From contig NZ_CP101458.1 in the NCBI RefSeq assembly GCF_024362525.1, positions 682,001 to 746,000 of the forward strand: a DNA stretch of 64,000 nt. The letters run 5' to 3'. This DNA comes from Natrononativus amylolyticus. Lineage in GTDB: Archaea; Halobacteriota; Halobacteria; Halobacteriales; Natrialbaceae. Positions 9,097 through 29,563 of this stretch are shown here, piece after piece. The notes under the pieces were generated by a model. That model had not been told where the DNA came from. It searched no databases and worked only from the letters and a program-made list of their open reading frames with translations. The first letter of the stretch is position 1. Each line of letters begins with the position of its first letter. A program made the position numbers and the translations under genes.

Positions 9097-9185
9097 CCGC
9101 CGAGCAGGGACCTCGCGGCGTGAACGGACGTCGGGGAGAAGCGAGCGCCAGAGCACCTATCACGTCTGATAATCGGGAGATAGCA

Positions 9186-9193: not shown

Positions 9194-9228
9194 AAAGCTA
9201 TTACTATCGGATTGTGGTGTACAATTGA

Positions 9229-9591
9229 ATGTCGAAAGGGGTGCTCATCGTGGACGACTCTCATTTTATGCGGAATCTACTCCGGCAAATTCTCGAACAG
9301 GAGTACCGCATCGTAGGAGAGGCGTCTAACGGAGCCGAAGCCGTCAAACTGTACAAGGAACGGAACCCCGACATCGTCATGATGGACATCGTGATGCCCA
9401 AGTGTAACGGCATCAAGGCGACCGCGGCGATCAAGAAGCTCGATCCCCGGTCGCGCGTCATCATGTGTACGAGTGTCGGACAGCGAGAGAAGATGAAACT
9501 GGCCGTGAAAGCGGGCGCCGACGGCTACGTGACGAAGCCGTTCGAGGAGCCGAGCGTCCGGAAGGCCCTGGCTGACGTCGTCGCGGTATGA
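9229..9591 (+). CDS. cheY: chemotaxis response regulator CheY
   Basis: A 120-residue stand-alone receiver. All key residues are present: acidic pair D9/D10, phospho-acceptor D53 in MMDIVMP, T81 and K103 in YVTKPF. Phosphorylated by CheA, it carries the signal to the archaellum motor through CheF-type adaptors in haloarchaea; no cheF is in this window. Its stop overlaps the cheB start (ATGA). Confidence 0.95.
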   Translation: MSKGVLIVDDSHFMRNLLRQILEQEYRIVGEASNGAEAVKLYKERNPDIVMMDIVMPKCNGIKATAAIKKLDPRSRVIMCTSVGQREKMKLAVKAGADGYVTKPFEEPSVRKALADVVAV

Positions 9592-13700: not shown

Positions 13701-13887
13701 CGGCATGGTCGTCCGCCTCCGCGATGCGGTGCGGCCGGTCGCGTTGCACTGCGAGACGGTCTCCGGCCAGCAGGAAGTCGTCGTCAAACCGTTCGAGGGA
13801 TTCATGGGGGACATTCCCGGCATCAGCGGCGCGACGGTTCGCGGTCGGGGCAACGTGGTCTCAATCCTGGATGTGACATCGATATGA
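10729..13887 (+). CDS. cheA: chemotaxis histidine kinase CheA, with very long acidic linker
   Basis: A 1052-residue kinase, far longer than the usual 650-700. The HPt domain (about 1-110) has the phospho-acceptor H45 in RIAHTLKGN. A second small domain (about 130-250) may be the CheY/CheB-docking P2. Residues about 265-640 are an extremely acidic, repetitive linker rich in DD, EF and FDD units. Then come the dimerisation helices, the HATPase domain (HLVRNAVDHGIETPEER, DDGSGLD, GRGVGMDVV) and the C-terminal CheW-like domain. It overlaps cheB, and cheC follows after 55 bases. Confidence 0.95.
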   Translation: MTDDYWSDFVHESEEHITELNNALLALEGSPDDRQAIDGIFRIAHTLKGNCGAMGLTRASDLAHALEDLLDGVRTGAVDVSPALMDTVFDGVDALEAMIAEVDDGGEVETDPGATIEAIRARIDAAEEPDAGELTAPTDEELEAVLARFDPPTDPDHDAFLARLAIADAGGDDDGVRVVTALEDAFELLGTDPSLEAIENREYGSRFDAVFASPVGEGAIAAALEPVDAVDAFEIVTVTGRLERAADREGPLSGLDSPRTNLSTDDAQELSVDELLDEFEEFDDLDAMVEETDGDDLDVFDEMGEAGSFDDLLGDAGLEPVDAPDEPSSPEPTEADDDVGDDAGAVFAELKDEVEMVGFEELQDELDELEFDEFDSDDEVSMAELLGEDADTDDSFLAVDDEVDAADAFEPETSEAVPEEPETSESPARVSEFEGADDEATEVDLDSAAEADPDDVTVSFEEADDVADNRAEADDATADDEWTPEFDGTDETQAEDEAIADEFADDGFDSEFADDEFGTDGDWTSEDEADPFALEEPADDALDGFGTADDLESSDGFDAPGGADEFGAFEPGDDSMGDGFDDDFALAPEDDAAGVDDLESADEFETPAFEGVDDFGGVDEPAAFDPAESAAGDVGFEETDDSSTTDRVVAEAPPFPIPDLTVPEPREGAIGDESEGLQSVRVDVEQIDSLLTLVEGLVTSRVRLRHAIEAEEDPKTVARELDDLESITSDLQETVMDVRLVPLQTVTNRLPRVVRDIAREQDKEVAFEIDGEDVELDRSILDRIGDPLIHLVRNAVDHGIETPEEREAADKPREGTVEVSASRSRDRVRLVVEDDGSGLDPDRLRDAAVENGVLTGDEAADLSESDAYDLIFHPGLSTAEEVTDVSGRGVGMDVVKRTIERLDGTVSVDSELEAGTTVTMTLPVTVAIADVLFLEAGGVSFGVPVKAVQDIEHGGAIERVDGRDVLSADDADVPVVRLAEEFDLPAGDSSAGMVVRLRDAVRPVALHCETVSGQQEVVVKPFEGFMGDIPGISGATVRGRGNVVSILDVTSI

Positions 13888-13942
13888 ACGGACGAACGCC
13901 GAACGAGCACCGATGCGAAACCGAACACAGACGGAGGAACAC

Positions 13943-14548
13943 ATGACGTTGAAAGTCGATATTCGAAAGCTAAGTTTCATCAATAAAATGGCAAAGGTCG
14001 GGACGAACGGCGTCGCCGATAACATGAGCAAACTCACGGGCGAAAACGCCCGGATGGAGGTGACGAAGACGAACTTCATCGACGTCGACGACATCCAGTC
14101 CCAGCTCGAGCCGGGCAAGCGCGTCGGCGTCCGGGTCCGGCTGCTCGACCCGCCACACGGACACATCCTCATCCTCTTTCCCGAGGCGAGCGCGAAGAAG
14201 ATCACGGCGATCATGCTCAGCGACGTCGTCGACGACATGTCGAACGTCTCCGGGAAGATGGCCCGCAGCGCGGTCGAGGAGATGGGGAACATGATGGCGA
14301 GCGGGTTCATCGACGGCTGGGCCAACGTGCTCGGCCGCGGGATCGACATCGCCGCACCACAGCTGGTGTACGCCCCCGCCGGCGAGATCGTCGTCCGAAC
14401 CGCCGGCCTCGGCGGCGACGACCTCGCGCTGTTTTTCGACTCCGATCTGTCGGTGCCGAGTTACCAGATCGAAGCCGAGATCTACGCCTTCCCCGAGCTC
14501 GAAACGTTCGTCGAGATGGTCAACGGTATCGACGTCCAGCCCGCATGA
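13943..14548 (+). CDS. cheC: CheC family CheY-P phosphatase
   Basis: A 201-residue CheC-type protein. The phosphatase helix with E-x2-N is intact in SAVEEMGNMMASGF (about residues 108-121). CheC removes phosphate from CheY and works with CheD. I chose the ATG at 13943 over one 10 codons upstream because a clear GGAGG lies 5 bases before it. Its stop overlaps the ATG of the next CheC gene by 4 bases. Confidence 0.9.
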   Translation: MTLKVDIRKLSFINKMAKVGTNGVADNMSKLTGENARMEVTKTNFIDVDDIQSQLEPGKRVGVRVRLLDPPHGHILILFPEASAKKITAIMLSDVVDDMSNVSGKMARSAVEEMGNMMASGFIDGWANVLGRGIDIAAPQLVYAPAGEIVVRTAGLGGDDLALFFDSDLSVPSYQIEAEIYAFPELETFVEMVNGIDVQPA

Positions 14549-15783
14549 GACTCGACGTCAACGCCCTGGGGACGTTCTACCGCATGGCCCGCGAGGGCGC
14601 CGGCCTCGCCGCCGGTCGTCTCACCAAGATGACCGGCGTCGACACGCAAGTCGGCGTGACGAAACTCAACTTCATGCGCGGCGGCGAGATCCGCCACGAG
14701 TTCGACGACGACGCCGAGAAGGTCGGCATTCGCGTCGAGCTCACCGGCGGGGTCGACGGCCACTCCGTCGTCGTCTTCGATCGGGAGAGCGCGTTCCGAA
14801 TCGTCGAGATGCTCGTCGCCGAGCCCGACATCGACGAGTTCGACGAGATGAGCCGGAGCGCCGCGACCGAGGTCGGCCAGGTGATGAACAGCGGTTTCAT
14901 CGACGGCTGGGCAGACGTCCTCGAGACGGTGATCGACGTCTCGACGCCGGAGTTCATCGAGGGCGAGACCGCGGCGCCGTTTCTCGACGACATCGAGGAG
15001 ACACCCGACGAGGGCGACCTCGCACTGCTCTTTCAGAGCCAGATCGAGGCCGTCGGAACCGAGATCAGCTTCGACCACTACCTGTTTCCGAAGCGGGAGT
15101 CGATGGCCCAGCTCCTCGAGCGCCTGCGCGAGAACGACGGCATCGAGTACGACAAGCTCGAGGGGTTCGACCGGATGGCCGAGCAGGGCGCAGAGGAGGT
15201 CGCGAAGACGGCGACCACGCTCACCGGCATCGACACGCGCGTCGAAATTCGCCGGCTCAACTTCGTCTCCCTCGAGACGATCCCCGAGCAGGTCGCAGAC
15301 GAGATGCTCGTCGGCGTCGCCTTCGAGTTCGACGGCACGCCGAGTGGCTACCTCCTGTTCCTGTTCGACGAGGACTCCGCCCACGAGATCGTTGACGCGA
15401 TGGTGCCGACGGCGACCGGCGACGGCGCCGGGTTCGACGAGATGGAGACGAGCGCGATCACGGAGCTCGGGAACATCATGGCGAGTGGTTTCCTCGACGG
15501 CTGGGCGAACGTCCTCGATACGACGATCGACCACTCGCCGCCGGAGTTCATCCACGACTACGGCGCCGCGGCCGTCGACCCCGTGATCATCCAGCTCGGC
15601 GAGAACCAGGAGTTCGCGTTCGTCTTCGACACGGTCGTCACCGCCGACGGCCGGGAGTTCGACTGCGACGTTTACGCGATCCCCGACGAGGCGGACCTCG
15701 AGCGCGCGCTGAACGACCTCGACGTCGGCCGCATCGCGGAGACGCCGACGACCGCGACCTTTCAGGAACTCGAGCAGACATGA
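14545..15783 (+). CDS. tandem double-domain CheC protein
   Basis: A 412-residue fusion of two CheC domains (about 1-195 and 205-400). Both show the FYRMAREGA / FDRMAEQGA opening and the GFIDGWADVL / GFLDGWANVL helix. In the second domain the catalytic E-x2-N is intact (ITELGNIMASG). In the first it reads ATEVGQVMNSG, with Gln in place of the Asn, so that half may be inactive or only bind CheY-P. It overlaps cheC upstream and cheD downstream. The same family occurs in other haloarchaeal chemotaxis loci. Confidence 0.88.
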   Translation: MRLDVNALGTFYRMAREGAGLAAGRLTKMTGVDTQVGVTKLNFMRGGEIRHEFDDDAEKVGIRVELTGGVDGHSVVVFDRESAFRIVEMLVAEPDIDEFDEMSRSAATEVGQVMNSGFIDGWADVLETVIDVSTPEFIEGETAAPFLDDIEETPDEGDLALLFQSQIEAVGTEISFDHYLFPKRESMAQLLERLRENDGIEYDKLEGFDRMAEQGAEEVAKTATTLTGIDTRVEIRRLNFVSLETIPEQVADEMLVGVAFEFDGTPSGYLLFLFDEDSAHEIVDAMVPTATGDGAGFDEMETSAITELGNIMASGFLDGWANVLDTTIDHSPPEFIHDYGAAAVDPVIIQLGENQEFAFVFDTVVTADGREFDCDVYAIPDEADLERALNDLDVGRIAETPTTATFQELEQT

Positions 15784-16295
15784 AGACGTACGGAAGCGAA
15801 CCGGGAACCCCCGACCCGGTCCAGGTCGGCATCTCAGAACTCGTCGTCAGCGAGGGTGACGATACGCTCAAATCCTACGGGCTCGGTTCCTGTCTCGCGA
15901 TCGCCCTCTACGATCCCGACACCGATATCGGCGGCCTCGCCCACATCATGCTCCCCGACGGGGACGCAGCCGACAACAGCGACACGAAACCCGGGAAGTA
16001 CGCCGACACGGCGATCCGGGCGCTCCTCCGGCGCATGGTCGAACGCGGCGCGAGCTACACCGCCGTCGAGGCCAAGATCGCCGGCGGCAGCGACATGTTC
16101 CAGTTCGAGAGCTTCGGCGAGGGCGTCGGCAACCGAAACATCGCCGCGGCCAGGGAGGAACTCGAGAAACTCGGCGTGCCGCTCATCGCCGAGGACGTCG
16201 GCGGCAGTTCGGGCCGCACCGTCGAGTTCACGCCGGGGACGGGCGCCCTCACCGTCAGAACCGCCGACGGCGAGCACGGAGTGACGGAGCTGTGA
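15780..16295 (+). CDS. cheD: chemoreceptor glutamine deamidase CheD
   Basis: A 171-residue enzyme that deamidates transducer glutamines and partners CheC. The catalytic Cys is in LGSCLAIALYD, the His in GLAHIMLPD and the conserved Thr region follows near TAIRALLRRM. Slightly longer than bacterial CheD. It overlaps the CheC fusion by 4 bases and cheR by 4 bases. Confidence 0.94.
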   Translation: MKTYGSEPGTPDPVQVGISELVVSEGDDTLKSYGLGSCLAIALYDPDTDIGGLAHIMLPDGDAADNSDTKPGKYADTAIRALLRRMVERGASYTAVEAKIAGGSDMFQFESFGEGVGNRNIAAAREELEKLGVPLIAEDVGGSSGRTVEFTPGTGALTVRTADGEHGVTEL

Positions 16296-17116
16296 GTACC
16301 GCCGCCTTCGACTCCCTGCTCGCGTACGTCGAGGACGAACTCGGCTTCGCGACGAGCCACTACAACGACAGCTACCTCGACCGGCGGATCGCCTCGCGGA
16401 TGCGCCGAACCGGCACGGACTGCTACGAGACGTATTTCGATACCCTGCGGTCTCAACCCGCCGAACAGGAGGCGCTGCTCGAGTCGATGAGCATCAACGT
16501 CACCGGCTTTTTCAGAAACCCCGAGGTGTGGGACGGCCTCCGGTCCGTGTTACGGACGCTGGCGGCCGAGAACGAGCGCGTTCACGTCTGGAGCGCCGCG
16601 TGCGCCGACGGGCGCGAACCCTACTCGCTGTCCATGCTCGCCCACGCCGACCCCCGAATCGACGAGTCCTCGGTGCACGTGCTCGCGACGGACATCAGCG
16701 AACCCGCCCTCGAGACGGCCCGACGCGGCGTCTACGAGGAGTCTCGCACCGTCGACATCGCCTCCCAGCTCGAGTACCTGCCGAACTACCGGGCGTACGT
16801 CGACCGCGAGGGACCGTACTACCGCGTCGCCGACACGGTCAAACGACGGGTCACGTTCGAGCGCCACGACCTGATCAACGACGAGCCGAAAGCCGGGTTC
16901 GACCTCGTCGTCTGTCGCAACCTGTTCATCTACATCGACACCGAGTACAAGCAGTCGATGCTCGAGACCCTCTCCCGGTCGCTCCGACCGACCGGGTTCC
17001 TCGTGATCGGCAAGGCCGAGACGCTCCCGTCCGCGCTCAAATCGACGTTCGACGTCCACCGTAGCCGCCTCCGGATCTACCGCCGCACCGTCGAGGCGTC
17101 CGTTCCGCGGCGCTGA
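16292..17116 (+). CDS. cheR: chemotaxis protein methyltransferase CheR
   Basis: A 274-residue SAM-dependent enzyme that methylates transducer glutamates. The N-terminal all-helical domain (to about 85) ends with MSINVTGFFRNPEVW; the SAM pocket is VWSAACADGREPYSLSM and the CRNLFIYID motif follows. It starts with GTG inside the cheD stop (GTGA). It is the last gene of the plus-strand operon and converges with the transducer gene 144 bases further on. Confidence 0.94.
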   Translation: MSTAAFDSLLAYVEDELGFATSHYNDSYLDRRIASRMRRTGTDCYETYFDTLRSQPAEQEALLESMSINVTGFFRNPEVWDGLRSVLRTLAAENERVHVWSAACADGREPYSLSMLAHADPRIDESSVHVLATDISEPALETARRGVYEESRTVDIASQLEYLPNYRAYVDREGPYYRVADTVKRRVTFERHDLINDEPKAGFDLVVCRNLFIYIDTEYKQSMLETLSRSLRPTGFLVIGKAETLPSALKSTFDVHRSRLRIYRRTVEASVPRR

Positions 17117-17260: not shown

Positions 17261-20002
17261 TTATCGGCCGTCGCCGAACGTGAAGACGTCGTCCGCCGAC
17301 TCCTCGTCGGCAGCGTCGTCATCGTCTTCCGCAGCGTTATCATCGTCTTCCGCAGCGTTATCATCGTCTTCCGCAGCGTCGCCGGCAAGCGGGTCGTCGC
17401 CGGGTAGCAGCGGATCGCGCTCGTCGGATCCACTCTCGGGAAGCAGCGGATCGCGGCCCTCGAACGACTCTTCGCTCGACGCCGGCGCGTCGTCGACGCC
17501 GAAGTCCAGCTCAGCCGCGTCGTCGACGGCGGCCGGTTGCTCGTCTCCCGAGTGGTCGGGAGCGAACTGCTCCGCAGAATCGGCCGGGAGCTCGAGCGGC
17601 TCCGCCTCGTCGGTCGGCGCCGCGAGCACGTCGGTCTCGTCGTGTGCGACCTCGACCGGGAACGCACCCTCGAGGTCGATCTCGGCGTCGGTGTCGAATC
17701 TGTCGAGCGCCTCCGAGAGCGTCGACGCCTGGCTCGCCAGGTCGCTCGCGCTGCGAGAGACCTCGGTGAGCGCCGTCGTCTGCTCCTCTGCGGCGGCCGC
17801 GACGTTTTCGCTTTCGGCGCTGGTCTCCTCGGAGATCGTCGCCGCCTCGTCGACCATCGCGACGGCCTCCTGGGTCGACGCCGCCTGCTCCTCGCTGGCC
17901 GCGGAGATCTCCTGGACGCCGGTGTTCGTCTCCTCGGCGTAGTCGGCGATCTCGTCGAGTGCGTCAGCCGCTCGCTCGACGGAGTCGGTGTGTTCGGAGA
18001 CCCGGTCGCTGGTGAGCTGGACCTCGTCTGCGGTCCGCTCGGTCTGCTCCTGAATCCGCTCGAGGCGCTGTTCGATGTCTTCTGCGGCCTGTTTCGTCTC
18101 CTCGGCGAGCTCTTTGACCTCGCCGGCGACGACGGAGAACCCTTCGCCGGAGTCGCCCGAACGGGCGGCCTCGATGTTGGCGTTCAGCGCCAGCATGTTG
18201 GTCTGTTCGGCGACCTCAGTGATGAACTCGATCAGCTCGTCGATCTGTTCCATCTCGGCCTCGAGGCGCTCGATTTCGGCGACCGCCTGCTCGGATTCGG
18301 CCTCGATATCGTTCATGCCCGCGATGGCCGCCTGGGCCGCGTCCCGACCCTGTTCGCCCGTGTTCGCGGTGCGCTCTGCGATGTCGGCGACCTGGTTCGA
18401 GGAGGCCGCGATCTGTTCGATCGTCGTCGAGAGGCCGTTCATCTCGTAGGTGACCGACTGTAGACTCTCGTTCTGGCGGTCGGCGCCGTCGGAGATCTCC
18501 TGGACGGACTCGGTGACCTGCTCGGAGGCCGACCGCACCTCCTCGCTCGAGGCGGTGACCTGCTCGGAGGCCGTCGCGACCTCGGTGGCGAACGCCTTGA
18601 GCTGGCCGGTGGTCCGCTCGATCTCGCCGATCATCTCGTTGAACTCGACGGCGATCTCCTCCATCGCCTCGTTCTCGCTCGACTCGTCCATCCGGGCGGT
18701 CAGGTCGCCGTCCGCACAGACCTGCATGACGTCGCTGTACTCGTCGGCTTTCGCCTCGAGGTGGCGGTTCGTCCGTTCGGTCTCGGCGCGAGCCTGCTCG
18801 GCTTCCTCGCGGGCGTCCTGTGCCTCGCGGATCTGGTCTTTGAGCGAGTCGCGCATGCTGGCGAAACCGCCGTAGAGCTGTCCGATGCTGTCGATACGCT
18901 GGGTTTCGAACTCGACGTCGAGGTCGCCCTCCTCCATCCGGGCCGCCTTGGTGGTGAGACGGTCGATGGAACTCGAGATGTTGCGGGCGATCAGTCCTCC
19001 GATGCCGACGATCAGCAGGATCGCCCCGGCAGAGGCGTACAGGCCGTAGTCGCTGACGGTGTTGACGAACCCGTAGGCCTCGCTCTCGGGCGTGTGCGTG
19101 ATGACGACCCAGTCGCTCCCCTCGGTCACCCGCATCGCGGTCGCGAGGTAGTCGTCGTCCGCGTACTGGCTGCCGACCGACGCGCTGAGCGCGTTGGCGG
19201 CCGCTCCGATCTCGTAGAGCTCCGGTTCGTTGTCGACGTTCGCGAAGTCGATGTCGTTGTCGTACGTTTCACCGAAGGACTCCCCCGCGGGGTCCATGAC
19301 GATCGTCCCCTCCTCGTCCTCGGCGTTGACGATGTAGGAGATGCTGCCGTCGGCGTTAATCATCTCGTCGGAGTACGCCTCGAGGTCCATCGAGATGACG
19401 ACGAAGTGCTGGCGGTCCTCCGCGACGCTCGCGTAGGTGAGCACCGGCGTGCCGTCGTGGGCCTCGTCGGCACCGAGAAGGATCGCGCCGTCGGTCCACT
19501 CGGAGTCCGTGATCACCGTCTCGTAGTCGAAGGCCGCGGCCCACTGCTCGTCGGCGTCCTCGAAGGAGGCGCCGTTGAGGTCGCGATCCGTGCTGTCGAG
19601 GACCACTTCGTCGTTGATGTTGACGTAGTGGATGCTGTGTATCCCGTCTTCGGTCTGTCTGACCGAGGAGATGTACTGGTGTGGCCGCTCTTCGTCGCCG
19701 ATCTGTCCGGCGATACTCTCGACGAACAGCTCGTTACGGTCGTTCCACTGCTCGATGTTTCGAGCCTCGTGGTGAGCCAGCGTCTCCTGGTCGGCTACCA
19801 CCCGCTGTTCGACCTCGCCGGCGATCTGGTCTGTACCCACGTAGCCTGCTGCCCCCACGGACAGGCCGAGAATGAGCAACGCGATCATAAACTTCGCCGC
19901 GAAACTCCGTCTGATGAATTTCGGTAGTACTCTTCGAACCGGGCCTAACATACGACCGATAGCGGTCCTCACTCCCAATAAAACCTTACCTACAATTATC
20001 AT
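17261..20002 (-). CDS. methyl-accepting transducer (Htr), membrane bound
   Basis: A 913-residue chemoreceptor. TM1 is near residues 36-57, then a roughly 270-residue extracellular sensor region of dCache/CHASE-like size, TM2 near 325-345, a HAMP domain, a second HAMP-like stretch, and the cytoplasmic signalling coiled coil with hairpin tip near [19 protein letters not shown]. After the signalling domain comes an acidic tail of about 120 residues containing three tandem copies of DDDNAAE-like units, ending VFTFGDGR. The ligand is not predictable. It faces the chemotaxis operon tail to tail. The start used is the ATG at 20002; an internal ATG at residue 18 is possible. Confidence 0.93.
17319..17380. 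repeat. 21-bp tandem repeat, three copies, inside the transducer gene
   Basis: Three head-to-tail copies of TCATCGTCTTCCGCAGCGTT(A) at 17319, 17340 and 17361; the first two are identical and the third ends differently. On the coding strand each copy adds seven residues (AAEDDDN) to the acidic C-terminal tail. Exact identity suggests recent duplication or slippage. Confidence 0.9.
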
Positions 20003-20086: not shown

Positions 20087-21202
20087 ATGAGCGAGTCCGA
20101 CTACCGTTCGTTCGTCGACCGGACGCGTGCGCTGATCGAGGCATCGCCCCCGACGACGCTCGAGGAGACCCGGTCGCTGCTCGTCGATCCGCTGCTCGCG
20201 ACGCTCGGCTGGGACGTCCGGACGGACGGAACGCCAGACGCCGAGATCGAGGGGGCGGCCCTCGAGTACGTGCTCTCGATCGCGGAAACGCCGGCGCTGT
20301 TGGCCGCCGTCGAGCCGTTCGCGGAACCGCTCGCGGAGGCGCGGATCGAGGCGCTCGAGGCGACGCTGGCGCGAACCGGCGTCGACCGCGCGCTCTACAC
20401 GAACGGGCGAACCGTGTTGTTACTCGGGAGGCGCGGCGGTCGACTCGAGCGTGCGGCCGTCGACTGGGCGGCGCTCCCGGAGAACGAACGGGCGCTCACA
20501 GCGCTCGAGCGGTCGACGCTCGCCGCTCGACTCGAGGACCCCACCCCCGCCTGCGGCGCCCGGCGACTCGCGATCGGGCGAGAGGAACTCGTCGCCGCGA
20601 TCGTCGACGAACTCGCGGCGACGATCGGAGACGACCACGAGCCGATGCTCGAGGCCGCAACCGACCGGTTTCTCGAGGGACTCCGCGAGGAGCTGTCGAC
20701 TCCGCCGGTCGAAACCGGGGATCGAACGGACGACGAACTCGAGGCGGCCGGTCGAACCGCCGAGGCCGGTGGCGCTGCGGATTCGGAGAGCACTAGTGTC
20801 GACGCCGGGGCGACTCGCTCGAGCGGGGACGGAGATCGAGCGGACGGAGCCGAGGGGGCGGAGCCAGCGGGTACCGACGAGGGCGACGGCGAGTTCGTGG
20901 TTCGGTTCTTCGGCGAGCGCGGATCGGTCGGCGCGATCGGCCACTCGACGCCCGCGGGGGCGCTCGTCCACGCCGCGGAGTTCCTCCTCGAGCGCGGCCT
21001 CTCGGGGGTGGAACTCCCCTGGGAGGTCGACGGGGAGGTCGTGCTTGCCGGAGAGGGGCTCGAGGGGCCGTCTCGTCAGCTCACGAACGGCTGGTATCTG
21101 AATACGGCAGGGGATCGGGAGGCGCTGGCTGACCGGGTCGAGGAGTTGGCGTCTCGAGCCGGGTTGCGGGCGATGTTGAGGGGCGATTGGGAGAGTCAGT
21201 AG
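20087..21202 (+). CDS. unknown protein with restriction-type N-terminal domain
   Basis: A 371-residue acidic soluble protein. The first 150 residues resemble the N-terminal domain seen in predicted type IV restriction endonucleases and other HsdR_N-like proteins (helix, LLVDPLLATLGWDVR, then strands ending in YTNGRTVLLLG), but the nuclease residues E-x-K are not evident. Residues about 205-280 are a low-complexity acidic linker. The C-terminal 100 residues (VVRFFGERGSVGAIGHSTP to the end) form a second small domain also seen at the end of such proteins. It lies between the transducer and pilus operons and its 3' end overlaps the last pilin-like gene by 7 bases. Function not assigned. Confidence 0.6.
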   Translation: MSESDYRSFVDRTRALIEASPPTTLEETRSLLVDPLLATLGWDVRTDGTPDAEIEGAALEYVLSIAETPALLAAVEPFAEPLAEARIEALEATLARTGVDRALYTNGRTVLLLGRRGGRLERAAVDWAALPENERALTALERSTLAARLEDPTPACGARRLAIGREELVAAIVDELAATIGDDHEPMLEAATDRFLEGLREELSTPPVETGDRTDDELEAAGRTAEAGGAADSESTSVDAGATRSSGDGDRADGAEGAEPAGTDEGDGEFVVRFFGERGSVGAIGHSTPAGALVHAAEFLLERGLSGVELPWEVDGEVVLAGEGLEGPSRQLTNGWYLNTAGDREALADRVEELASRAGLRAMLRGDWESQ

Positions 21203-21942
21203 TCGATGTCGACGACGACAATATCAATAGTGACCTTATCAGCATCACAGGTATAGGTATCGTCCTCAAATTCCCATTGTTTATTCTCGTCTTCGGGATC
21301 AAGAACATCCTCCCATACTTGGCTAGTGCTGGATTCGCCAGTGATTGTGATTTCAACAGCATCATTTTCCTCGACTGTTTTTCGTATCGACTCTTGCTCC
21401 GTGACAGTAAGTTCGAGGCTCCCGGAACTCTGTAGCGAACGATCAGTCGGTTCGATAACGACGAGCGAGATCAGTCCTGTGTTTTCCCCGCAACTCATTC
21501 GAGGCTCCCGTAGCGCGACGCTGCCCTCTCCATCGTCGCTGTGTCTGAAGATGCCACCGCCCTCGTAGGCGACGACTTCGGAGCCGAGTTGGTACTCGAG
21601 TGAACCGATCGGGACTTTTTCGCCGTCGAATTCTCCGTCGACCTCGAGTTCTGCACCGCCGTCTCCCGTACTGATCGTTCCGTCCCGAAGTGCGAGTTCA
21701 CCCGATCGTTCCTCGATTGCATCGTAGCGCATCACGTCGTTGAAGTTGTCTGCGAGGGCGTCCATCGCTCGTTCGGCGTTGTGGATCTGTTCGCCCTCCT
21801 GGTAGTCCTCCATTGCCTGGAAGCCGGTAACGTACAGTAGCCCGACCGAGCCGATGATGATGGCGAACACGAGGACGAAGCCCATGACTTCGCTGACTGC
21901 GCGATCTCGGCCGTCGCTGTCAGAATCAATTACTCGAGTCAT
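21196..21942 (-). CDS. pilin-like protein 5 of the pilus operon
   Basis: A 248-residue protein with an archaeal pilin-like N-terminus: charged residues, then DRAVSEVMGFVLVFAIIIG, an S/V-rich hydrophobic helix (about residues 14-37) preceded by a possible prepilin-peptidase site. The rest is a beta-rich acidic ectodomain with two Cys (about residues 152 and 234). It is the last gene of the pil operon and overlaps the gene before it by 4 bases. It may be a minor pilin. GC is visibly lower than in pilB and pilC. Confidence 0.75.
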   Translation of the reverse strand: MTRVIDSDSDGRDRAVSEVMGFVLVFAIIIGSVGLLYVTGFQAMEDYQEGEQIHNAERAMDALADNFNDVMRYDAIEERSGELALRDGTISTGDGGAELEVDGEFDGEKVPIGSLEYQLGSEVVAYEGGGIFRHSDDGEGSVALREPRMSCGENTGLISLVVIEPTDRSLQSSGSLELTVTEQESIRKTVEENDAVEITITGESSTSQVWEDVLDPEDENKQWEFEDDTYTCDADKVTIDIVVVDIDY

Positions 21943-22457
21943 ACGTTCTGAATCGAAACCCCCTCGTCTCCCGTAGAGACGATTTCGATGCTACCGCCGC
22001 GAGCCTCACTATCTTCGGCGACATTAGCCGATACTGGAACAAACACCGTCACGTCCTCGTTGTCGGCAGACAGTTTCAAACAGGAGTCTTTTATTTCATT
22101 TTCGTTCTCATCTTCATATTCTCTGATCATCCAGGCATCCGGTTCGTCACATTCATCGTACAACTCGACCGTATACGTCGAACTAGCAACTCGTTGAGGG
22201 TGTGACGTTCGAAGCGTTACTTTGTCATCGTCCTCCGTTGCCAGTCGATCGGCATCCGAGAGTTCACCCGACAGTCGCTCGCCGATCGTCTTGAGGGAGC
22301 CCTCCGCGCTCCGTTCGGTTTCGGACTCGAGCAGCGAGCCGGCACCGAGCATGAGCCCGGAGATCAGAACTGCAGTGATCCCGAGCGTTATCACGTGGGT
22401 GACCGTAATCGAAACGGCACGGTCGTCATTACGAAATCGTGTGTGCGTTCGATCCAT
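21939..22457 (-). CDS. pilin-like protein 4 of the pilus operon
   Basis: A 172-residue membrane-anchored protein. The N-terminal motif DDRAVSITVTHVITLGITAVLISG (about residues 10-33, with one hydrophobic helix) is followed by an acidic extracytoplasmic domain with two Cys pairs of unknown pairing. Part of the overlapped operon: it begins at the last base of the preceding gene and ends within the next start. Probably a minor pilin or pilus assembly factor. Confidence 0.7.
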   Translation of the reverse strand: MDRTHTRFRNDDRAVSITVTHVITLGITAVLISGLMLGAGSLLESETERSAEGSLKTIGERLSGELSDADRLATEDDDKVTLRTSHPQRVASSTYTVELYDECDEPDAWMIREYEDENENEIKDSCLKLSADNEDVTVFVPVSANVAEDSEARGGSIEIVSTGDEGVSIQNV

Positions 22458-22906
22458 TAGCTCTCACCCTTGTTAGGACAGTCCCCACCGGAAATGCCCT
22501 CGATCGTTTTCTCGACGGATACGTCGGTAGATTCGTAAATATACGTCAGATCGACACTGTCCTCGTTATTGTTTATACTAATCTCTTCCTGTGGAATATC
22601 CACGACCGCGGACCTCGAGTCGGATACCGATTGGTGATAGAGCTCTGCGAACGCTTTGATTTCCTCCATCTCCTCGTCGGTGTCTTCGAGGTCTTCTGCT
22701 TCGTGAACGAAGCAGCCAATGCCCTGTTTGATCTCGAGTTCGACCGTACTCGCGTGAGCAGTTTCGCCGCTTGTTCCACTCGAGGAAACCGTCTGCGTGT
22801 ACAGCAAGCCGTTGAACACCACAACCACCCCGAGAATGATGAATGCGATCGCGATCGCAGAGACGAGGATCAATTGTCCACGATCCCGAGAACGGCCGCT
22901 TACCAT
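22457..22906 (-). CDS. pilin-like protein 3 of the pilus operon
   Basis: A 149-residue protein with a short basic start, the motif DRGQLILVSAIAIAFIILG and a single hydrophobic helix (about residues 8-33), then an acidic soluble domain with two Cys. The arginine-glycine-glutamine before the helix recurs in the two genes upstream. No function is proven for these families; context indicates a pilus subunit or assembly protein. Confidence 0.7.
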   Translation of the reverse strand: MVSGRSRDRGQLILVSAIAIAFIILGVVVVFNGLLYTQTVSSSGTSGETAHASTVELEIKQGIGCFVHEAEDLEDTDEEMEEIKAFAELYHQSVSDSRSAVVDIPQEEISINNNEDSVDLTYIYESTDVSVEKTIEGISGGDCPNKGES

Positions 22907-23550
22907 ACAACCACCCGCACTTCTACAACATTGTAGATGGCCCCATCATCCTCAGTCGGTTCATTTGGTATGGGATAATTAAATTCATCAGCATTCTCGA
23001 GTGACCCACTGTGGTCAGGTGTCCTGAAATCCTGATACTCGTAGAGCGTCACGGTGTAACTTGCCGTGACAGCAGTTGAGCTCGGTGATCCCTGATAGAC
23101 CAGATACAGGTCGTCTTCTGCCTCCCCGTCAGAGTCCTGATAAACGAGTTCGACATTGTAGTTTTGACCACGCTCACCGAACCGTTCCTCGAGAATATTT
23201 CCAAGTAGACTTCTCTCCTCGAGTACGTCCTCATCGCTGAAACGGTCTGCAGTATACGCCGTCGTTTCAGCAGGAGCATTGCTCCTGTAGAACTCTTGCT
23301 CTTCAGGGTCTTCACTCGCGTTCCAGTATCTAACCAGTTGGGAGAGTTCACCCTCATTTTCCGTAACGATCAACGCATCCTGCACCTCCTGTTGCGTCTG
23401 TGCCTGACTCGAGCGGTCCACCGCTCCACCGGTCGTCGGCGTGATCACGACCGCCTGAAGCGCGAACAACACCGCCATGAGGACAATGATAGCGCCGATG
23501 AAGCCCTCTAGTGTGTACGCCTGTCCACGATCGTTGTTTGTTCGTCTCAT
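22900..23550 (-). CDS. pilin-like protein 2 of the pilus operon
   Basis: A 216-residue protein. Residues 1-10 are charged, then DRGQAYTLEGFIGAIIVLMA forms the start of a hydrophobic helix that includes a glutamate (LEGF), as in true type IV pilins where Glu5 sits in the helix. An acidic, Asn/Gln-rich extracytoplasmic domain follows. It overlaps the next gene by 7 bases and is separated from the previous one by a single base. Confidence 0.7.
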   Translation of the reverse strand: MRRTNNDRGQAYTLEGFIGAIIVLMAVLFALQAVVITPTTGGAVDRSSQAQTQQEVQDALIVTENEGELSQLVRYWNASEDPEEQEFYRSNAPAETTAYTADRFSDEDVLEERSLLGNILEERFGERGQNYNVELVYQDSDGEAEDDLYLVYQGSPSSTAVTASYTVTLYEYQDFRTPDHSGSLENADEFNYPIPNEPTEDDGAIYNVVEVRVVVW

Positions 23551-23551
23551 C

Positions 23552-24034
23552 TTACCATACCCTCACGATCAGTCGGCAGGCGGGATCACACACCTTTTCT
23601 TCGACAGTGACGATCCGACTCGCACTCGCTGCAGTTTGCCCGTCTTCGTAGCTGTCGTCCGTTTCCCACTCATCACCGCTACCGAGTGGCTCGATCGTAA
23701 CGTGGACGTTATCAATAGGATCGCCTTGATTATTCACTCGCAATCCCATTTCGGTGAGGTCGACATCCTCGAACTCGTCCTCGTTCCCGAAATCGAGATT
23801 ATTCGGATCTCCATGCTCATACTGGCTCAGTATCTCCCCCGCAATCCGATCAGCCTGCGCCTGCTCCGCACTTCCAATGGACGAATCAAAGGGCGTCAGC
23901 AGCGACGGAACGAACGAGAAGACGAACGCCATCGCCAGCAGGAAGACGCCGATGCCGACGACGAAGTCCTGGGTGGTCTGGCCGCGCTCTGCGAGCGAGA
24001 GCGAAACGCGTCGGGGACGACTCGAGCCCGCCAT
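23552..24034 (-). CDS. pilin-like protein 1 of the pilus operon
   Basis: A 160-residue protein with a basic leader (SRPRRVSLSLAERGQ), then a hydrophobic helix (about residues 23-45) and an acidic domain. The ERGQTTQDFVVGIGVFLLA segment again has a polar/acidic residue just inside the helix, as in type IV pilins. Two Cys occur near the C-terminus (CDPAC). It starts one base after the pilC stop. Confidence 0.7.
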   Translation of the reverse strand: MAGSSRPRRVSLSLAERGQTTQDFVVGIGVFLLAMAFVFSFVPSLLTPFDSSIGSAEQAQADRIAGEILSQYEHGDPNNLDFGNEDEFEDVDLTEMGLRVNNQGDPIDNVHVTIEPLGSGDEWETDDSYEDGQTAASASRIVTVEEKVCDPACRLIVRVW

Positions 24035-24035
24035 C

Positions 24036-26096
24036 TCAGGCCACCATGATCCACGCCACGAGCGCGATCGTCGCGAGGACGATCACGTACTTGAGCCCGC
24101 TCAACAGGTCGGCGTCCCGGATGTAGCCGCTGATGAATCCCGCGAGGATCGCCTGGAGGGCGATCGCGTGGAAGAACAGCAGCGAGAGCATGTCGGTGTC
24201 GACGTTCTCGCTGAAGTCCGCGTCCCCGAGGTCGCCGCCGGCACCGCCGACGTCGCTCGTTCCCGCGTCGGCGCCGCCGGTCTCGAGGCCCGCCATCGTG
24301 TCGATGAACTGCGTCTTGAGGATGGCGATCACCGCGAGGAGGGTCATGAACGTCATGATGATGATGACGACCTGCATCAGGGTGCGGGACTTGCGCTCGC
24401 GTTCGATCTCGTCGTGGTTCTCGCTGGCGGTCGCGGCGGTGCGGAGGACGTCCGAGATCTGGTTCGAGGCCTCCTGGGCCTTGACGACGAGTTTGACCGT
24501 CCGGGCGAGTCTGGGGATGTGGTACTTGTTGTTGAACTCGACGAGCGCCTCCTTCAGGCTCATCCCGTAGTTGACCTTGGTGTGCATCATCTCGAACTCG
24601 CGGGCGAGCTTGCCGTTGGTCGTGTCCGCGACCGACTGCAGCGACTCGAGCAAGGTCAACCCCGTGTCGTTCGCGCTCGAGAGCTTCCGGAGGTCGTCCG
24701 AGAGCGTGTTGATGACCGCGTTCCGGGTCCGAACGTTCCACTCGCGGAAGATCGCCAGCGGGACCAGCGTCAGGTACAGCGGAACGTAGAGGTAGACGAA
24801 CGTTCCCCAGATCGGCGCCGCCTGCATCCCCTCCCAGCTGGTCGGTGCCGAGCCGGTCATCATCCCCATCGTGACGACGACGAGCGCCGCCGGAACGGTG
24901 AGCGCGAGCGTGTACAGCGGGTTGTCCCGGAAGAAGATGTGAGGTTTCCGGAGCACCTGGACCGTCTCGTGGGTGCCCTCGCGGTTTTTGATCCGGTCGA
25001 AGACGCTGTGCTCGCCGGTGAACTGTTCGACCAGCCCGAGGTTGAGCAGGCTGCGGTTCTGTGCGCTCTCGATTCGCTTGTCGTCGCCGCCGACCGAGAG
25101 GAAGCCGTCGCCGGGCTCGTCGTGTTTGACCGTCGAGACGAGCACGATGAACGCGATCCCCGTCATCGGAATCAGCCCGTAGACGGTCAGGTAGAGCATC
25201 CCGTCGGAGACGTCCGCGGAGGGGATCATCTGCATGATGACGAGGATGATGATGAGCAGGAGGGGAAACAGCGAGAGGGTCATGTACATCTCGCCGAACA
25301 GCTCGAGCGTCTCGAGGGTCGTCTCCTGCTCCTGTTTGGCGGTTCGCATGTGCTTTTCCTTCTTGTCCTCGAGGAAGCTCTCCATGTCACCGCCGCTGTT
25401 GATGATCGAGAGCATGTCCGTCAGAAACTGCGAGAGGTCGTCGCTTGGCGTCTCGATCGCCTGCTTGCGGACTGCGGTCCGATAGTCGATGTCGAAGTAC
25501 TCCGTCTCCTGGACGATGCTCTGGAACTCTTTTGCGACCTCACCGTAGGTGTCCTCGGCCTGGGCCATCGACTCGAGGATCTCGAGCTGGTTGAGCCCGC
25601 CGACCGACAGCGCGTACATGAACGAGATCGAGTCCGTCAGCAGCATGTTGATCTCGCGCTTGCGCGCCGACGCCCGCGAGTAGGGGATCGCGACGAGCGA
25701 GCCGAAGCCGGCGGCGAAGCCGACGGTTCCGAACACTACTCCGGTAACGAGCACCAGCGCCGGCACCCGCAGCGTCTCGATCAGTGAGAGCGCCGTCTCG
25801 TTCGGGACGGGCATCCGGGTGAGCGCCCCGACCGGCACCAGACCGGTCGCGAACAGCGCGTAGCCAAGGACGACGCCCAGGAACCACAGCACCAGTCCGG
25901 TGATGAACCCGACGCCCAGCGCTCGTGCCAGGTAGAGTTCGACGGTGTCGGCCATCCGGGCCTGGGCGAGTTTCAACTCGACGTCGCCGACGAACTGGCT
26001 GTCGTCGGAGAACAGGCGATCGTACAGGGGGTAAAACGCGTTCCCGAGCGAGTCGGAGCCGGCTGACATCCCCTGTGAGCCCGTCTGTAAACTCAT
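24036..26096 (-). CDS. pilC: type IV pilus membrane platform protein (T2SSF family)
   Basis: A 686-residue inner-membrane platform with two T2SSF domains, the layout of archaeal PilC/ArlJ/TadC fusions. Hydrophobic segments lie at about 60-85, 115-140, 275-330, 410-465, 585-605 and at the C-terminus. It anchors the assembly ATPase and guides pilin extrusion. Its start overlaps the pilB stop (ATGA). The symbol follows haloarchaeal usage; which numbered paralogue it is cannot be told here. Confidence 0.9.
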   Translation of the reverse strand: MSLQTGSQGMSAGSDSLGNAFYPLYDRLFSDDSQFVGDVELKLAQARMADTVELYLARALGVGFITGLVLWFLGVVLGYALFATGLVPVGALTRMPVPNETALSLIETLRVPALVLVTGVVFGTVGFAAGFGSLVAIPYSRASARKREINMLLTDSISFMYALSVGGLNQLEILESMAQAEDTYGEVAKEFQSIVQETEYFDIDYRTAVRKQAIETPSDDLSQFLTDMLSIINSGGDMESFLEDKKEKHMRTAKQEQETTLETLELFGEMYMTLSLFPLLLIIILVIMQMIPSADVSDGMLYLTVYGLIPMTGIAFIVLVSTVKHDEPGDGFLSVGGDDKRIESAQNRSLLNLGLVEQFTGEHSVFDRIKNREGTHETVQVLRKPHIFFRDNPLYTLALTVPAALVVVTMGMMTGSAPTSWEGMQAAPIWGTFVYLYVPLYLTLVPLAIFREWNVRTRNAVINTLSDDLRKLSSANDTGLTLLESLQSVADTTNGKLAREFEMMHTKVNYGMSLKEALVEFNNKYHIPRLARTVKLVVKAQEASNQISDVLRTAATASENHDEIERERKSRTLMQVVIIIMTFMTLLAVIAILKTQFIDTMAGLETGGADAGTSDVGGAGGDLGDADFSENVDTDMLSLLFFHAIALQAILAGFISGYIRDADLLSGLKYVIVLATIALVAWIMVA

Positions 26097-29000
26097 TTCG
26101 CACCCTCGTCGTCGGGGTCGGCCTCGAAGATCGACTCGGCGTCCCCGTCGTCTTCTTCCTCGTCGATAGCCGCGGCCGGTTCGAACATCGAACCGCCGTC
26201 ATCGGCGTCAGCCAGGGAGTCGCCGCCGAAGATCGACTCCGACTCGTCGCCGAAGATCGACCCGGTTTCGATCGGCTCGCGACCGTCGTCGTCCGCCGAG
26301 GAGCGATCGTCGAAGACCGATTCGTCGCCGTCCCCGGCGCGCGCGCCATCGAGCGACTCGCCGGCCGCCTCCTCCCGGGCCGCGTCTGAGTCCGGCGTCT
26401 CGCTCCCGAGGTTCTCGAGGGTGTCTTCCATGTCGTCGAACAGGCCGCCGAGGTCGGCTTCCTCGTCGTCGCCGCCGCCGGCCTCCTCGTCGTCGCCGAC
26501 TTCTGCTGTCTCGTCGAACGACAGCTCCGCGGTCTCCGATTCGTCCGCGGCCGTCGCGTCCGCCGCTCGCTCGGCGCCGCCGCTCTCTGGCTCCGGTGCC
26601 GTTTCCGGGGCGTCGGCCGGGGATTCACTCGCCTCGGCGACATCTTCGGTCTCGTCGGCGTCGGCTGCCGCAGGGGCGGCGTTCGAGTCGTCCCCGATCG
26701 TCGCCGGCTCCGCCGGAGTGGAGTCGGCCTCGACGTCCTCCGGCGGCGCCTCGAGCGCCGGCCGCTCGGGCGTTTCAGCGTCGTTACCCGCCGACGTCTC
26801 GGCGTCTGCGGCGGCCTCCGCCGGCGACGGCTCCGCCGGTTCGGTGTCCGCACCGATCTCGAAGCCGCCGTCGTCGTCGAGCCAGGAGGGGGTGTTCTCG
26901 TCGTCGGTCGTGGTTCCGAACGTGAACTCGTCGCCGTCGCCGAAGTCCCACTCGTCCTCGAACTCGTCGTCGACCTCGATCGGATCGGCCGCCTCGACGC
27001 CGCCGAGTGCGCTCGCGAGTCCGCTCGGGACCTTTCCGCGGTAGTCCTCGAACAGGGACTCCTCGGCGCGCTCTAAGATGTCCATCGAGGTGTTGTACGT
27101 CTCCGTCGTCGACCCCGGTCTCGGCACCAGCTCCTCCTTCTCGGGGTCGACGTCGATCAGCACGCTCTCCATCTCCCGGAGGTCCTCGAGGCTGTCCTCG
27201 AGCTGGCCGTTGGCGATCAGCGTGAGGATCGTGTCGGGGTCGTTGATGAACGCCTGGATCGTCGCGGCGACCTGCGCGTAGGTGTTGAGCTCGTTTTTGA
27301 TCAGATAGGCCAGGATGATCTGGCGTTTGAACAGCTCGTCCTGGAGCTTCTCGTAGCTCCAGCCGCGGTCGAACTGGATCGCGTCGAGCGTGTTCGAATC
27401 GCCCATCTTGAGGTACTCGTCGGTTTCGGCCTGCCACTGGTAGACGTCCTGGACGTTGATCTCGTCGTGTTCGGCCTCGTAGTGGTTGATCTCCGTGAGC
27501 GACTTGTTCCGGCGGACCTTCCGGCCCTGGACCCGCGTCTGTGTCTGGATCGAGACCAGGTCCAGCGCCGTGAACATCGTCTTCGAGACGTTGATCGGGT
27601 CCGTCGTGAATCGCTTGAGCACCTCGTCGACGGAGTCCGCGTGGAACGTCGTGTAGGTCGTGTGACCCGTCGACATGACCTGGAACAGCGTTCGGCCTTC
27701 CTCACCGCGAATCTCACCCATCACGATGTAGTCGGGGCGCTGTCGAAGCGCGGCCTCGAGCAGGTCGAACTCGTCGACGTCGCCCGTGGAGTCGTCCGAA
27801 AAGGACGGGCGGGTGACGCTCGCGATCCAGTTTCGCTGGGGGAGTTCGACCTCGCGGGTGTCCTCGATGGAGACGATCTTCGTGGCCGAGGGGATGAACA
27901 GCGACACCGCGTTCAGGCTGGTCGTCTTCCCCGAGGCCGTCCCGCCGGCGAAGATCAGGCTCTTGTGGTTCTCGATGGCGAGCCAGAGGAACGCCATCTC
28001 CTCCAGGCTGAAGGTGTTCCAGTTGATGAGGTCGATCGGCGTGAACGGGACGTCCTTGAACTGCCGGATGGTGTAGTTGGTCCCGTGGTCGGAGACCTCC
28101 TTGCCGAGGGTGAGCTGGGCGCGCGAGCCGTCCGGCAGGGTCGCGTCGACCTGCGGCAGCCGCTTGCTGATCCCCTTGCCGGAGCGCTGGGCGAGTTTGA
28201 CGACGAAATCGTCGAGCTCGGTCTGTCCGTGGTAGATGTTCGAGATGATCTGCTCGTACTCGGAGTGGTAGACGAAGACGGGCGAGTTGTACCCGTCACA
28301 GGAGATGTCCTCGACGTTGATGTCGTGTTTGATGCCGTCGATGCGCTCGTAGCCGATGAAGTCCCGCTTGAGCAGGTGGAGCAGTTTCTCGACCTGGTAC
28401 TCGCTGAGGACGTCCGAATCCTCCTCGAGCAACACCGGCTCCGGGCGGGCCTCGATCCCCTCGAGCTGGCCCTCCTCTCGCTCGCCGTCCTCCTCGTCGT
28501 CGAGCAGGGTTTTCAGCGTCTCGATGATGCCCGCGTTCGTGGTTCCGGTGGTCCCTTCGTAGAGGTCGTAGCGCTCGAGCAGTCGCCGCGTTTCCGCGTC
28601 GATCACCGCCCGGCGGCTCTCCTCGTCGGCGGTCTGTTTGATCCCGTCGTCGGAGTACTTGATCGCCGTCCTGAGCTTGCCCGAGAGGAACTCCTGGAGC
28701 TCCGTCTCGATCGCCGTCAGGTACGGCTCGATCATGTAGTACTTCTTCTCGTTTTCCTTCTCGGAGTGGAAGATGATGACGAACGCGTATGGTTTGTTGA
28801 CCCAGTAGCGCTCGACCTCCGTGAAGTGCTGTTTCTTGGCCAGCGAGACGGCCTTCTCGAGGTCGTACCGGTTGACGACGGTCGTGTGGCCGTCGGCCGT
28901 CGAGAAGAACTCGTCTTCGTCGATATCCTCGGCGACGTTGACCGTGCGCTCGTCGACGAGGTCGTCGAGCTCGCTCGCGGCCTGCCCGCCGGCGTGGAGG

Positions 29001-29563
29001 TACGCCTCGATCCGGTCGGGGTCGAACCCCAGGGCGTCCTTCTCGTCGTGCCGGACGATCTCGCCGTCGTCGTCCCGGGGCCTGTTGCCGTCCTCGTCGT
29101 AGTAGTACTCCCACTTGTAGTGCTCCCAGGTGTAGACGTCCTTGACGACCGGCGTCGTCTCCGGGTCGACGTACTCGAGAAAGACGTCCTGGAGGTAGTT
29201 CGCGTTCGGTCCGAAAACGTCGGTGATGAGGTCGGAGAGCTCGAGCGGATCGTAACCGAGGTAGGGAGTCGGGTCGAACTCGACGCGATCCCAGTCCGCG
29301 GCGGAGGGGGCCGTCGAACGCGGTTCCTCATCGGTGTCGATGCCGAGCTGATCGTCCGGACCGTCGGTTCCGTGGGGGTACAGCAGAGAGACTTCGTCAC
29401 CGTGTCCGTACTCCGCCATGAACTCCGCCCACGTGTACTCGCCGACGCGGACGTCCGCACCTCGCGTCGGCTCGCGGGTCCGGTGGTCCGCCGCGCCACC
29501 TGCCGACGGTTCGCCGTCAGAAACCTGTCCGGCGTCCGACCTGTCGGCCTCGTCAATAGCCAT
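26093..29563 (-). CDS. pilB: type IV pilus assembly ATPase, long acidic C-tail
   Basis: A 1156-residue type II/IV secretion ATPase that powers pilus assembly. The first 120 residues are an acidic extension, followed by a winged-helix/N-terminal domain and the ATPase core with Walker A GGTASGKTTS (about residues 552-561), the Asp box, Walker B VMGEIRGEEGRT and the His box STGHTTYTTFHAD. After about residue 800 comes an intrinsically disordered, Asp/Glu/Ala-rich tail of some 340 residues with repeated short motifs (see findings). It is the first gene of the operon; no convincing TATA box was seen upstream. Confidence 0.92.
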   Translation of the reverse strand: MAIDEADRSDAGQVSDGEPSAGGAADHRTREPTRGADVRVGEYTWAEFMAEYGHGDEVSLLYPHGTDGPDDQLGIDTDEEPRSTAPSAADWDRVEFDPTPYLGYDPLELSDLITDVFGPNANYLQDVFLEYVDPETTPVVKDVYTWEHYKWEYYYDEDGNRPRDDDGEIVRHDEKDALGFDPDRIEAYLHAGGQAASELDDLVDERTVNVAEDIDEDEFFSTADGHTTVVNRYDLEKAVSLAKKQHFTEVERYWVNKPYAFVIIFHSEKENEKKYYMIEPYLTAIETELQEFLSGKLRTAIKYSDDGIKQTADEESRRAVIDAETRRLLERYDLYEGTTGTTNAGIIETLKTLLDDEEDGEREEGQLEGIEARPEPVLLEEDSDVLSEYQVEKLLHLLKRDFIGYERIDGIKHDINVEDISCDGYNSPVFVYHSEYEQIISNIYHGQTELDDFVVKLAQRSGKGISKRLPQVDATLPDGSRAQLTLGKEVSDHGTNYTIRQFKDVPFTPIDLINWNTFSLEEMAFLWLAIENHKSLIFAGGTASGKTTSLNAVSLFIPSATKIVSIEDTREVELPQRNWIASVTRPSFSDDSTGDVDEFDLLEAALRQRPDYIVMGEIRGEEGRTLFQVMSTGHTTYTTFHADSVDEVLKRFTTDPINVSKTMFTALDLVSIQTQTRVQGRKVRRNKSLTEINHYEAEHDEINVQDVYQWQAETDEYLKMGDSNTLDAIQFDRGWSYEKLQDELFKRQIILAYLIKNELNTYAQVAATIQAFINDPDTILTLIANGQLEDSLEDLREMESVLIDVDPEKEELVPRPGSTTETYNTSMDILERAEESLFEDYRGKVPSGLASALGGVEAADPIEVDDEFEDEWDFGDGDEFTFGTTTDDENTPSWLDDDGGFEIGADTEPAEPSPAEAAADAETSAGNDAETPERPALEAPPEDVEADSTPAEPATIGDDSNAAPAAADADETEDVAEASESPADAPETAPEPESGGAERAADATAADESETAELSFDETAEVGDDEEAGGGDDEEADLGGLFDDMEDTLENLGSETPDSDAAREEAAGESLDGARAGDGDESVFDDRSSADDDGREPIETGSIFGDESESIFGGDSLADADDGGSMFEPAAAIDEEEDDGDAESIFEADPDDEGAK

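Follow-up and report, generated by a model that had tools for sequence, protein, structure and literature searches.

INTRODUCTION

In bacteria, chemosensory systems are known that control type IV pili. In the Pil-Chp system of Pseudomonas, chemosensory genes are tied to a type IV pilus (PMC12632253), and CheA proteins of the Tfp class typically have several Hpt domains and a receiver domain and lack P2 (PMC10782961). The archaellar chemotaxis system of Halobacterium includes CheF (Schlesner et al. 2009, PMC2666748), a protein reported in all archaeal chemotaxis (che) regions then known except the che2 regions of Methanosarcina (PMC2666748). For haloarchaea, no description of a link between che genes and pili was found in the open-licence literature searched. 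Here, we describe a 64,000-nucleotide stretch of the Natrononativus amylolyticus genome (positions 682001 to 746000 of contig 1; genome of 3.99 Mb in 3 contigs, 98.6% complete), referred to below as the window, in which a type IV pilus locus with five prepilin-like genes, P1 to P5, lies beside a che cluster and a chemoreceptor gene.

The closest described pilus loci are those of the PilB4 type (clade 2 in Fig. 4B of Makarova et al. 2016, PMC4858521; HVO_1160 in Haloferax volcanii). They are described as having extra parts in the ATPase, their own pilin set, and their own predicted major pilin (arCOG03926), with arCOG02911 as a minor pilin, and PilA is assigned to PilB3-C3 (PMC4858521). H. volcanii without PilB3-C3 has no surface pili, from which its authors infer that PilB4-C4 builds a different structure (PMC4371748). 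Expression of PilB4 or PilC4 has been reported in Haloferax (PMC12542753, PMC4371748, PMC7305310).

RESULTS

A PilB4-type locus with five prepilin-like genes

The seven pil genes of the window all lie on the minus strand. PilB (26093-29563, 1156 aa) is an assembly ATPase of the PilB4 type with a T2SSE match at residues 465 to 677 (7.7e-31), a long N-terminal extension, and an acidic C-terminal tail. The PilB3_C and PilB3_N models each fall slightly short of their cut-offs (1.5e-5 and 2.5e-4), and the best NCBIfam match, to an archaellum ATPase model, reaches 386 bits, under its cut-off of 550. PilC (24036-26096, 686 aa) is a TadC-like membrane platform matched by T2SSF in two stretches (4.6e-29). 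The five prepilin-like genes belong to separate Pfam families: P1 (23552-24034; DUF7287, 1.1e-37), P2 (22900-23550; DUF7288, 1.6e-61), P3 (22457-22906; DUF7261, 4.2e-8), P4 (21939-22457; DUF7266, 2.2e-17), and P5 (21196-21942; DUF7289, 2.5e-58). Neighboring genes overlap by 4 (pilB/pilC), 7, 1, and 4 nt, with 1-nt gaps at the two remaining junctions.

All five pilins carry a class III signal, with a charged n-region, an R-[GA] site, and one hydrophobic helix directly after it. With the predicted cleavage site marked by a slash, their N termini read ERG/Q (P1), DRG/Q (P2 and P3), and DRA/V (P4 and P5). When the N-terminal 45 residues of the 195 window open reading frames (ORFs) of at least 100 aa are scanned, [DE]R[GA][QV] followed by a hydrophobic stretch turns up in exactly these five.

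Relatives were taken from a family sample (Natrialbaceae, the family of the window genome; 121 genomes, 29 genera) and a class sample (126 genomes, 31 of them also in the family sample); the locus sets compared comprise up to 41 family loci and up to 78 named loci. DUF7287 is found in 117 of 121 family genomes and 119 of 126 class genomes. P1 to P5 stand in order in 39/41 family and 69/78 named loci, and are followed by PilC and PilB in 37/41 and 59/78, respectively; some of the shortfalls come from cut contigs, and in others (L197, L212, and L224) the pilins are not followed by pilC-pilB. PilB4-type loci share with the window the extra ATPase parts, the TadC-like platform, and the own pilin set, and two Haloferax loci (L204 and L214) also share the gene order. 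The PilB tails of L204 and L214 have no S-[ILMV]-F motifs, whereas the window PilB tail has repeats of this motif and a che cluster adjoins the window locus.

The window ATPase is extended at length on both its N- and C-terminal sides, a TadC/PilC platform gene adjoins it, and the locus has its own co-located pilins, all of them features of a PilB4-type locus. We are highly confident that P1 to P5 are prepilins of such a pilus. Because PilB4-type loci are published and near-universal in haloarchaea, the pilin cassette is not new; the locus belongs to a known kind. The initial annotation, made from the sequence alone, had described five pilin-like genes with a common N-terminal pattern, coupled to pilB-pilC, and seven genes that overlap or abut, and these descriptions hold. 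It makes no mention of the neighboring che genes. Its further step to a fixed stoichiometry does not follow, since gene overlap does not imply it.

A Methanocella metagenome bin (L230) has P1-, P2-, P4-, and P5-like genes together, suggesting that the cassette is older than the haloarchaea. Another genome (G028) holds a second P1-to-P5 cassette (L060) with no adjoining pilC or pilB; an additional P5-like gene faces this cassette in convergent orientation.

A che cluster without CheF adjoins the pilus

On the plus strand, positions 8347 to 17116 encode chemotaxis proteins in the order CheW-Y-B-A-C-C-D-R. CheW (8347-9096; Pfam, 3.5e-17) is followed by a stand-alone CheY (9229-9591), which scores 199.8 bits against the NCBIfam CheY_Halo cut-off of 200 and has the conserved site residues, and by CheB (9588-10736; 4.9e-60). 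CheA (10729-13887, 1052 aa) comprises a single Hpt domain with an AHTLKG phosphorylation box, P2, a long acidic linker, and dimerisation, kinase, and CheW domains; it has no receiver domain. Downstream lie CheC1 (13913-14548; 9.1e-12), CheC2 with two CheC/CheX units (14545-15783; 4.2e-19, two stretches), CheD (15780-16295; 4.9e-32), and CheR (16292-17116; 6e-46). An Htr-type methyl-accepting chemoreceptor of 913 aa follows on the opposite strand (17261-20002, minus; best NCBIfam MCP match 2.1e-30, under the equivalog cut-offs). Between it and P5 lies X371 (20087-21202, plus), a gene for an uncharacterised 371-aa protein that is convergent with P5 and overlaps it by 7 nt.

A very long acidic linker marks CheA of the pil-side cluster, with frames of 1049 to 1554 aa compared with 575 to 693 aa for most other CheA; the exceptions are L140 (1073 aa) and L119 (971 aa). 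The L119 genome (G035) has no ArlD/E and holds a second, different che cluster (receptor, CheW, CheB, CheA, CheC, and CheD).

Searches of the source genome reached at best E 0.2 for archaellin (PF01917) and E 0.16 for ArlD/E (PF04659), both under cut-off, and gave no match for CheF (PF04283). Two genes match T2SSE, and no third motor ATPase was detected. As a control, the archaellin, ArlD/E, T2SSE, and CheF models all matched in Haloferax volcanii. Five places in the source genome encode PilA-type pilins above cut-off. Archaellin was searched in the source genome only; elsewhere, absence of an archaellum means absence of an ArlD/E match.

CheD is a good proxy for a che system, because the same 19 of 126 class genomes lack CheD and CheA. 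In the family sample, CheD is present in 113 genomes, ArlD/E in 81, and CheF in 33. Positions of DUF7287 as well as CheD are listed for 108 genomes; the two lie within 30 kb of each other in 95 and within 12 kb in 93. Forty family genomes have no ArlD/E; CheD is kept in 39 of these and lies within 12 kb of DUF7287 in 33. In the remaining seven, some of which are drafts, the two are far apart (G009 and G013) or on different contigs (G058 and G116), CheD is absent (G026), or DUF7287 has no match (G094 and G099). The CheY site residues are present in all 19 CheY proteins found, including that of the window, and the other 18 are 89 to 97% identical to it; eight of the 19 come from genomes without ArlD/E.

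At least two CheD genes occur in 31 of 32 genomes with both ArlD/E and CheF, whereas the 49 genomes with ArlD/E and no CheF have one (36 genomes), two (6), or none (7). By these copy counts, most genomes with the CheF-type system have it as a second system, and the system on the pil side is the more commonly shared. The 49 genomes, with the 7 among them that also lack CheD, further indicate that che and the archaellum vary apart. In genus g2, six genomes with ArlD/E have no CheD, and three without ArlD/E have a pil-linked CheD (Fisher p 0.012, not corrected for kinship). As a separate observation, 49 of the 81 family genomes with ArlD/E show no CheF match (noted in L231, L232, and L233); chemotaxis may thus not act on these archaella, or may reach them by some other route.

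PilB tail motifs and the che cluster

The acidic tail of the window PilB (about residues 850 to 1156; 26096-27016, minus strand) contains five S-[ILMV]-F motifs, compared with a shuffled expectation of at most 0.28 per tail. Tails were scored in the 72 rows in which both genes were readable, the rest being dropped: at least three motifs are present in 34 of 38 rows scored with this che cluster and in 1 of 34 others, and the four che rows below this number have one or two motifs in tails of 276 to 425 aa. The motif is infrequent in the other che and pil proteins (means of 0 to 0.3; 2.1 per 695 aa in PilC). PilB measures 1091 to 1437 aa in 31 family loci with CheA or a linked CheD and in four with che elsewhere, and 680 to 778 aa in nine family loci scored without a che cluster. 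Both states occur in Natronococcus, where L173 has che and a PilB of 1242 aa with four motifs and L187 has no che and a PilB of 680 aa with one.

Two further candidate markers were rejected. Many class genomes have a long PilB tail without che, so that only S-[ILMV]-F is informative, with exceptions; an F-x-F-G motif common to the PilB and Htr tails proved irregular in relatives.

Pilus output or inherited gene order

In 31 of 41 family loci, the arrangement CheD-(CheR)-(Htr)-X371 abuts P5 in convergent orientation. The block is absent in L033, L057, and L071, where the next recognised gene beside P5 is the DUF5803 gene that lies left of che in the window, and CheD and CheR are its sole remnants in L070 and L221. 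In all three genomes of family f7 that were examined, 37 to 67 kb separate the same che cluster from pil, and in two of them X371 and the receptor accompany the cluster; PilB bears tail motifs in both f7 genomes whose PilB was read.

Tentatively, and with a likelihood under even, we read the locus as a PilB4-type pilus with a five-pilin cassette and a neighboring CheF-less che pathway whose most likely output is the pilus motor rather than an archaellum. PilB, PilC, and the five pilins would together make up a single PilB4-type pilus machine. A prepilin peptidase would cut P1 to P5 after R-G or R-A, and PilB-PilC would assemble the cleaved pilins, as their families suggest. The receptor and CheA, whose genes and phosphorylation box are present, would sense; CheY, with its site residues in place, would be phosphorylated; and CheY or CheC/CheD might contact PilB, perhaps via the motif-bearing acidic tail. 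The outcome would be directed adhesion or twitching. Archaeal twitching with a single ATPase has been reported for Sulfolobus (PMC11178815). The more specific proposal, that a CheF-independent Che system steers the pilus via the PilB tail and so directs surface movement or adhesion in species without an archaellum, is more doubtful.

Several findings weigh against a functional link. The che and pil genes are convergent and do not form one operon. On the flank of che that faces away from pil, neighbors (TFE-like and DUF5803 genes) are kept in 7 to 8 of 10 genera. For 121 of the 151 acidic ORFs behind PilB, a homologue lies on the same side in at least one other of ten genera, and for 54 of them in at least five of nine (on the che side, 81 of 158 acidic ORFs, with 30 in at least five of nine). 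Each of the genes that stand behind PilB in the window recurs there in no more than one of ten genera; an apparent break in gene order at this point is an artefact of comparing the window only, as the ten other genera share those flanks. Such wide conservation means that the che-pil adjacency may be mere inherited chromosomal order. In the class outside the family, none of the 48 genomes that carry the two genes on a single contig has them within 12 kb (10 within 70 kb), and the pilus is kept in che-less genomes. The PilC tree contains only three independent changes of che state, of which the tail follows about 2.7 (sign test, p 0.25). PilB tails also occur without che, the che-less G154 having three motifs, and the long branch of the che-less g2 rows means that their pilus system could have been replaced rather than its tail lost. 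CheA, too, lacks the marks of the Tfp class, as it has one Hpt domain, P2, and no receiver.

The strongest rival explanation, to which we give a chance only just below even, is an ordinary PilB4-type pilus whose adjacency to che is inherited order, with a che output that is another pilus (such as PilB3/PilA) or a function other than motility. The synteny of both che-pil flanks among ten other genera, the convergent orientation, and the distances in f7 all fit it, as do the PilA-type pilins and second T2SSE ATPase of the source genome. It accounts less well for the 31 of 41 family loci in which che, X371, and pil stay together, or for the co-distribution of PilB tail motifs with the che cluster, including parallel absence at three places in the tree. 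We put the che-pilus link at somewhat below even odds.

Pilin N termini and possible roles of the five pilins

Three of the five pilins have an acidic residue near the start of the helix, at a conserved position that is specific to each family; the initial annotation had counted two. Counted from the predicted cleavage site, an acidic residue stands at +5 in P1 (40/40 family and 68/69 named loci), at +6 in P2 (Glu in the window; 39/41 and 77/77), and at +3 in P5 (Glu in the window; 39/39 and 66/69). P3 and P4 of the window have none at +1 to +8, and none is found in P3 (0/39 and 0/74) or P4 (0/41 and 0/69) of the relatives. These counts cover rows in which the motif was recognised; 1, 0, 2, 0, and 2 of 41 family loci and 8/77, 1/78, 2/76, 9/78, and 8/77 named loci were dropped for P1 to P5, respectively.

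The N termini are of two kinds. P1 to P3 start with R-G/Q, which resembles the archaellins of relatives (RG/QVGIGTLIV in L231 to L233), and P4 and P5 with R-A/V-S, which resembles the PilA pilins of the source genome itself (RA/VSPVIGVIL). Profile comparison with hhalign ties P4 weakly to PilA (E 7e-4, probability 26%, 25 columns), as it does P5 (E 1.7e-3, probability 16%, 21 columns); P4 and P5 are closer to each other (E 4e-5, probability 71%), and P1 shows no tie to PilA. The classical N-methyl pilin model (PF07963) has no match in the whole genome.

An AlphaFold2 model of P5 (pLDDT 88, pTM 0.78) has a long helix at residues 12 to 72 followed by an all-beta head, which in the model is the usual build of a pilin. 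In the model of P1 (pLDDT 84, pTM 0.65), the helix is shorter and is followed, after a break, by a small alpha/beta head. Neither matched a solved structure at E below 0.001 or Z of at least 8, and profile searches of solved sequences with P1 and P5 returned nothing credible. The likeness of the P1 head to sensor domains and ribosomal proteins (Z up to 6.3) was set aside as a common arrangement.

The cassette probably provides both shaft and tip or initiation subunits. A candidate major pilin is P4, which has a PilA-like N terminus; the three pilins with an acidic residue (P1, P2, and P5) may be subunits at defined places. That none of the five is the major pilin, as proposed initially, is unsupported and contradicts the major pilin of their own predicted for PilB4 loci (PMC4858521).

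The minor pseudopilins GspH-I-J-K of type II secretion are several small pilin-like proteins encoded together, as are P1 to P5. On a second alternative, which would be compatible with the other readings, the five pilins form an initiation or tip complex of this kind, and the shaft is PilA encoded elsewhere. PilA-type pilins do occur elsewhere in the genome, and five distinct pilins that differ in the position of the acidic residue would suit set sites within a complex. In P1 to P5 the acidic residue lies at +3, +5, or +6 or is missing, and fold comparison of the P1 and P5 models was uninformative. Against this alternative, no pseudopilin family (GspH/I/J/K) is among the matches at E≤1. The assignment of PilA to PilB3-C3, the own major pilin predicted for PilB4 loci (both PMC4858521), and the different structure inferred for PilB4-C4 from H. 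volcanii without surface pili (PMC4371748) likewise argue against it. We consider this alternative unlikely.

Additional genes at the locus

X371 has no family match above cut-off, and a profile search of solved sequences found nothing credible. It consists of two conserved blocks with a variable acidic linker between them. In 33 of 41 family loci it stands between che or the receptor on one side and pil on the other, and in L135, L137, and L150 it occurs together with che and the receptor. Six other haloarchaeal loci have a sixth, large pilin-like gene (502 to 739 aa, weak DUF7289-family score) convergent to P5, in the place held by X371 and che in the window (L192:12769-14361, L199:14105-16324, L202:12793-14382, L204:13514-15667, L214:13585-15675, and L218:12814-14322); possible identities for this gene product are an adhesin and arCOG02911, the minor pilin of variable length described in the literature. 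In the source genome, a 496-aa protein with the PilA-like start RA/VSPVIGLVLL (L234:2671-4161), whose gene adjoins PilA-type pilin genes, is a possible counterpart. A membrane histidine kinase is encoded directly upstream of CheW (7047-8222) and has a same-side relative in one of ten genera.

DISCUSSION

The che system of the window shares core Che proteins with the archaellar chemotaxis of Halobacterium (PMC2666748), but its genome has no detected CheF and no detected archaellum genes. The nearest precedent for the missing CheF is the che2 regions of Methanosarcina (PMC2666748). The window system differs from the described archaeal ones that we found in being without both CheF and detectable archaellum genes.

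Compared with Pil-Chp, the association of chemosensory genes with a type IV pilus is common to both, although the pilus output is a proposal here and the two gene sets of the window are convergent. No PilT is known here. The pilus control that we propose would be a functional counterpart of bacterial Pil-Chp, by analogy. What may be new is the presence of a che cluster and receptor beside the pilus.

It is very improbable that the cluster survives from archaellar chemotaxis after loss of the archaellum: the CheW-Y-B-A-C-C-D-R order does stand beside PilB-model matches read as ArlI in some other families (L132, L146, and L147), with a PilC-model match read as ArlJ in L132 and L147, but CheD is kept in nearly all family genomes without ArlD/E, CheY is highly conserved with intact site residues, and genomes with ArlD/E can be without CheF and even CheD.

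The retention of CheD in 39 of 40 genomes without ArlD/E suggests that their che systems probably serve something other than an archaellum. The adjacent, near-universal five-pilin pilus is the obvious candidate output for these systems, and the class-wide pattern of acidic residues in the five pilins offers a way to approach the ordering of such a pilus.

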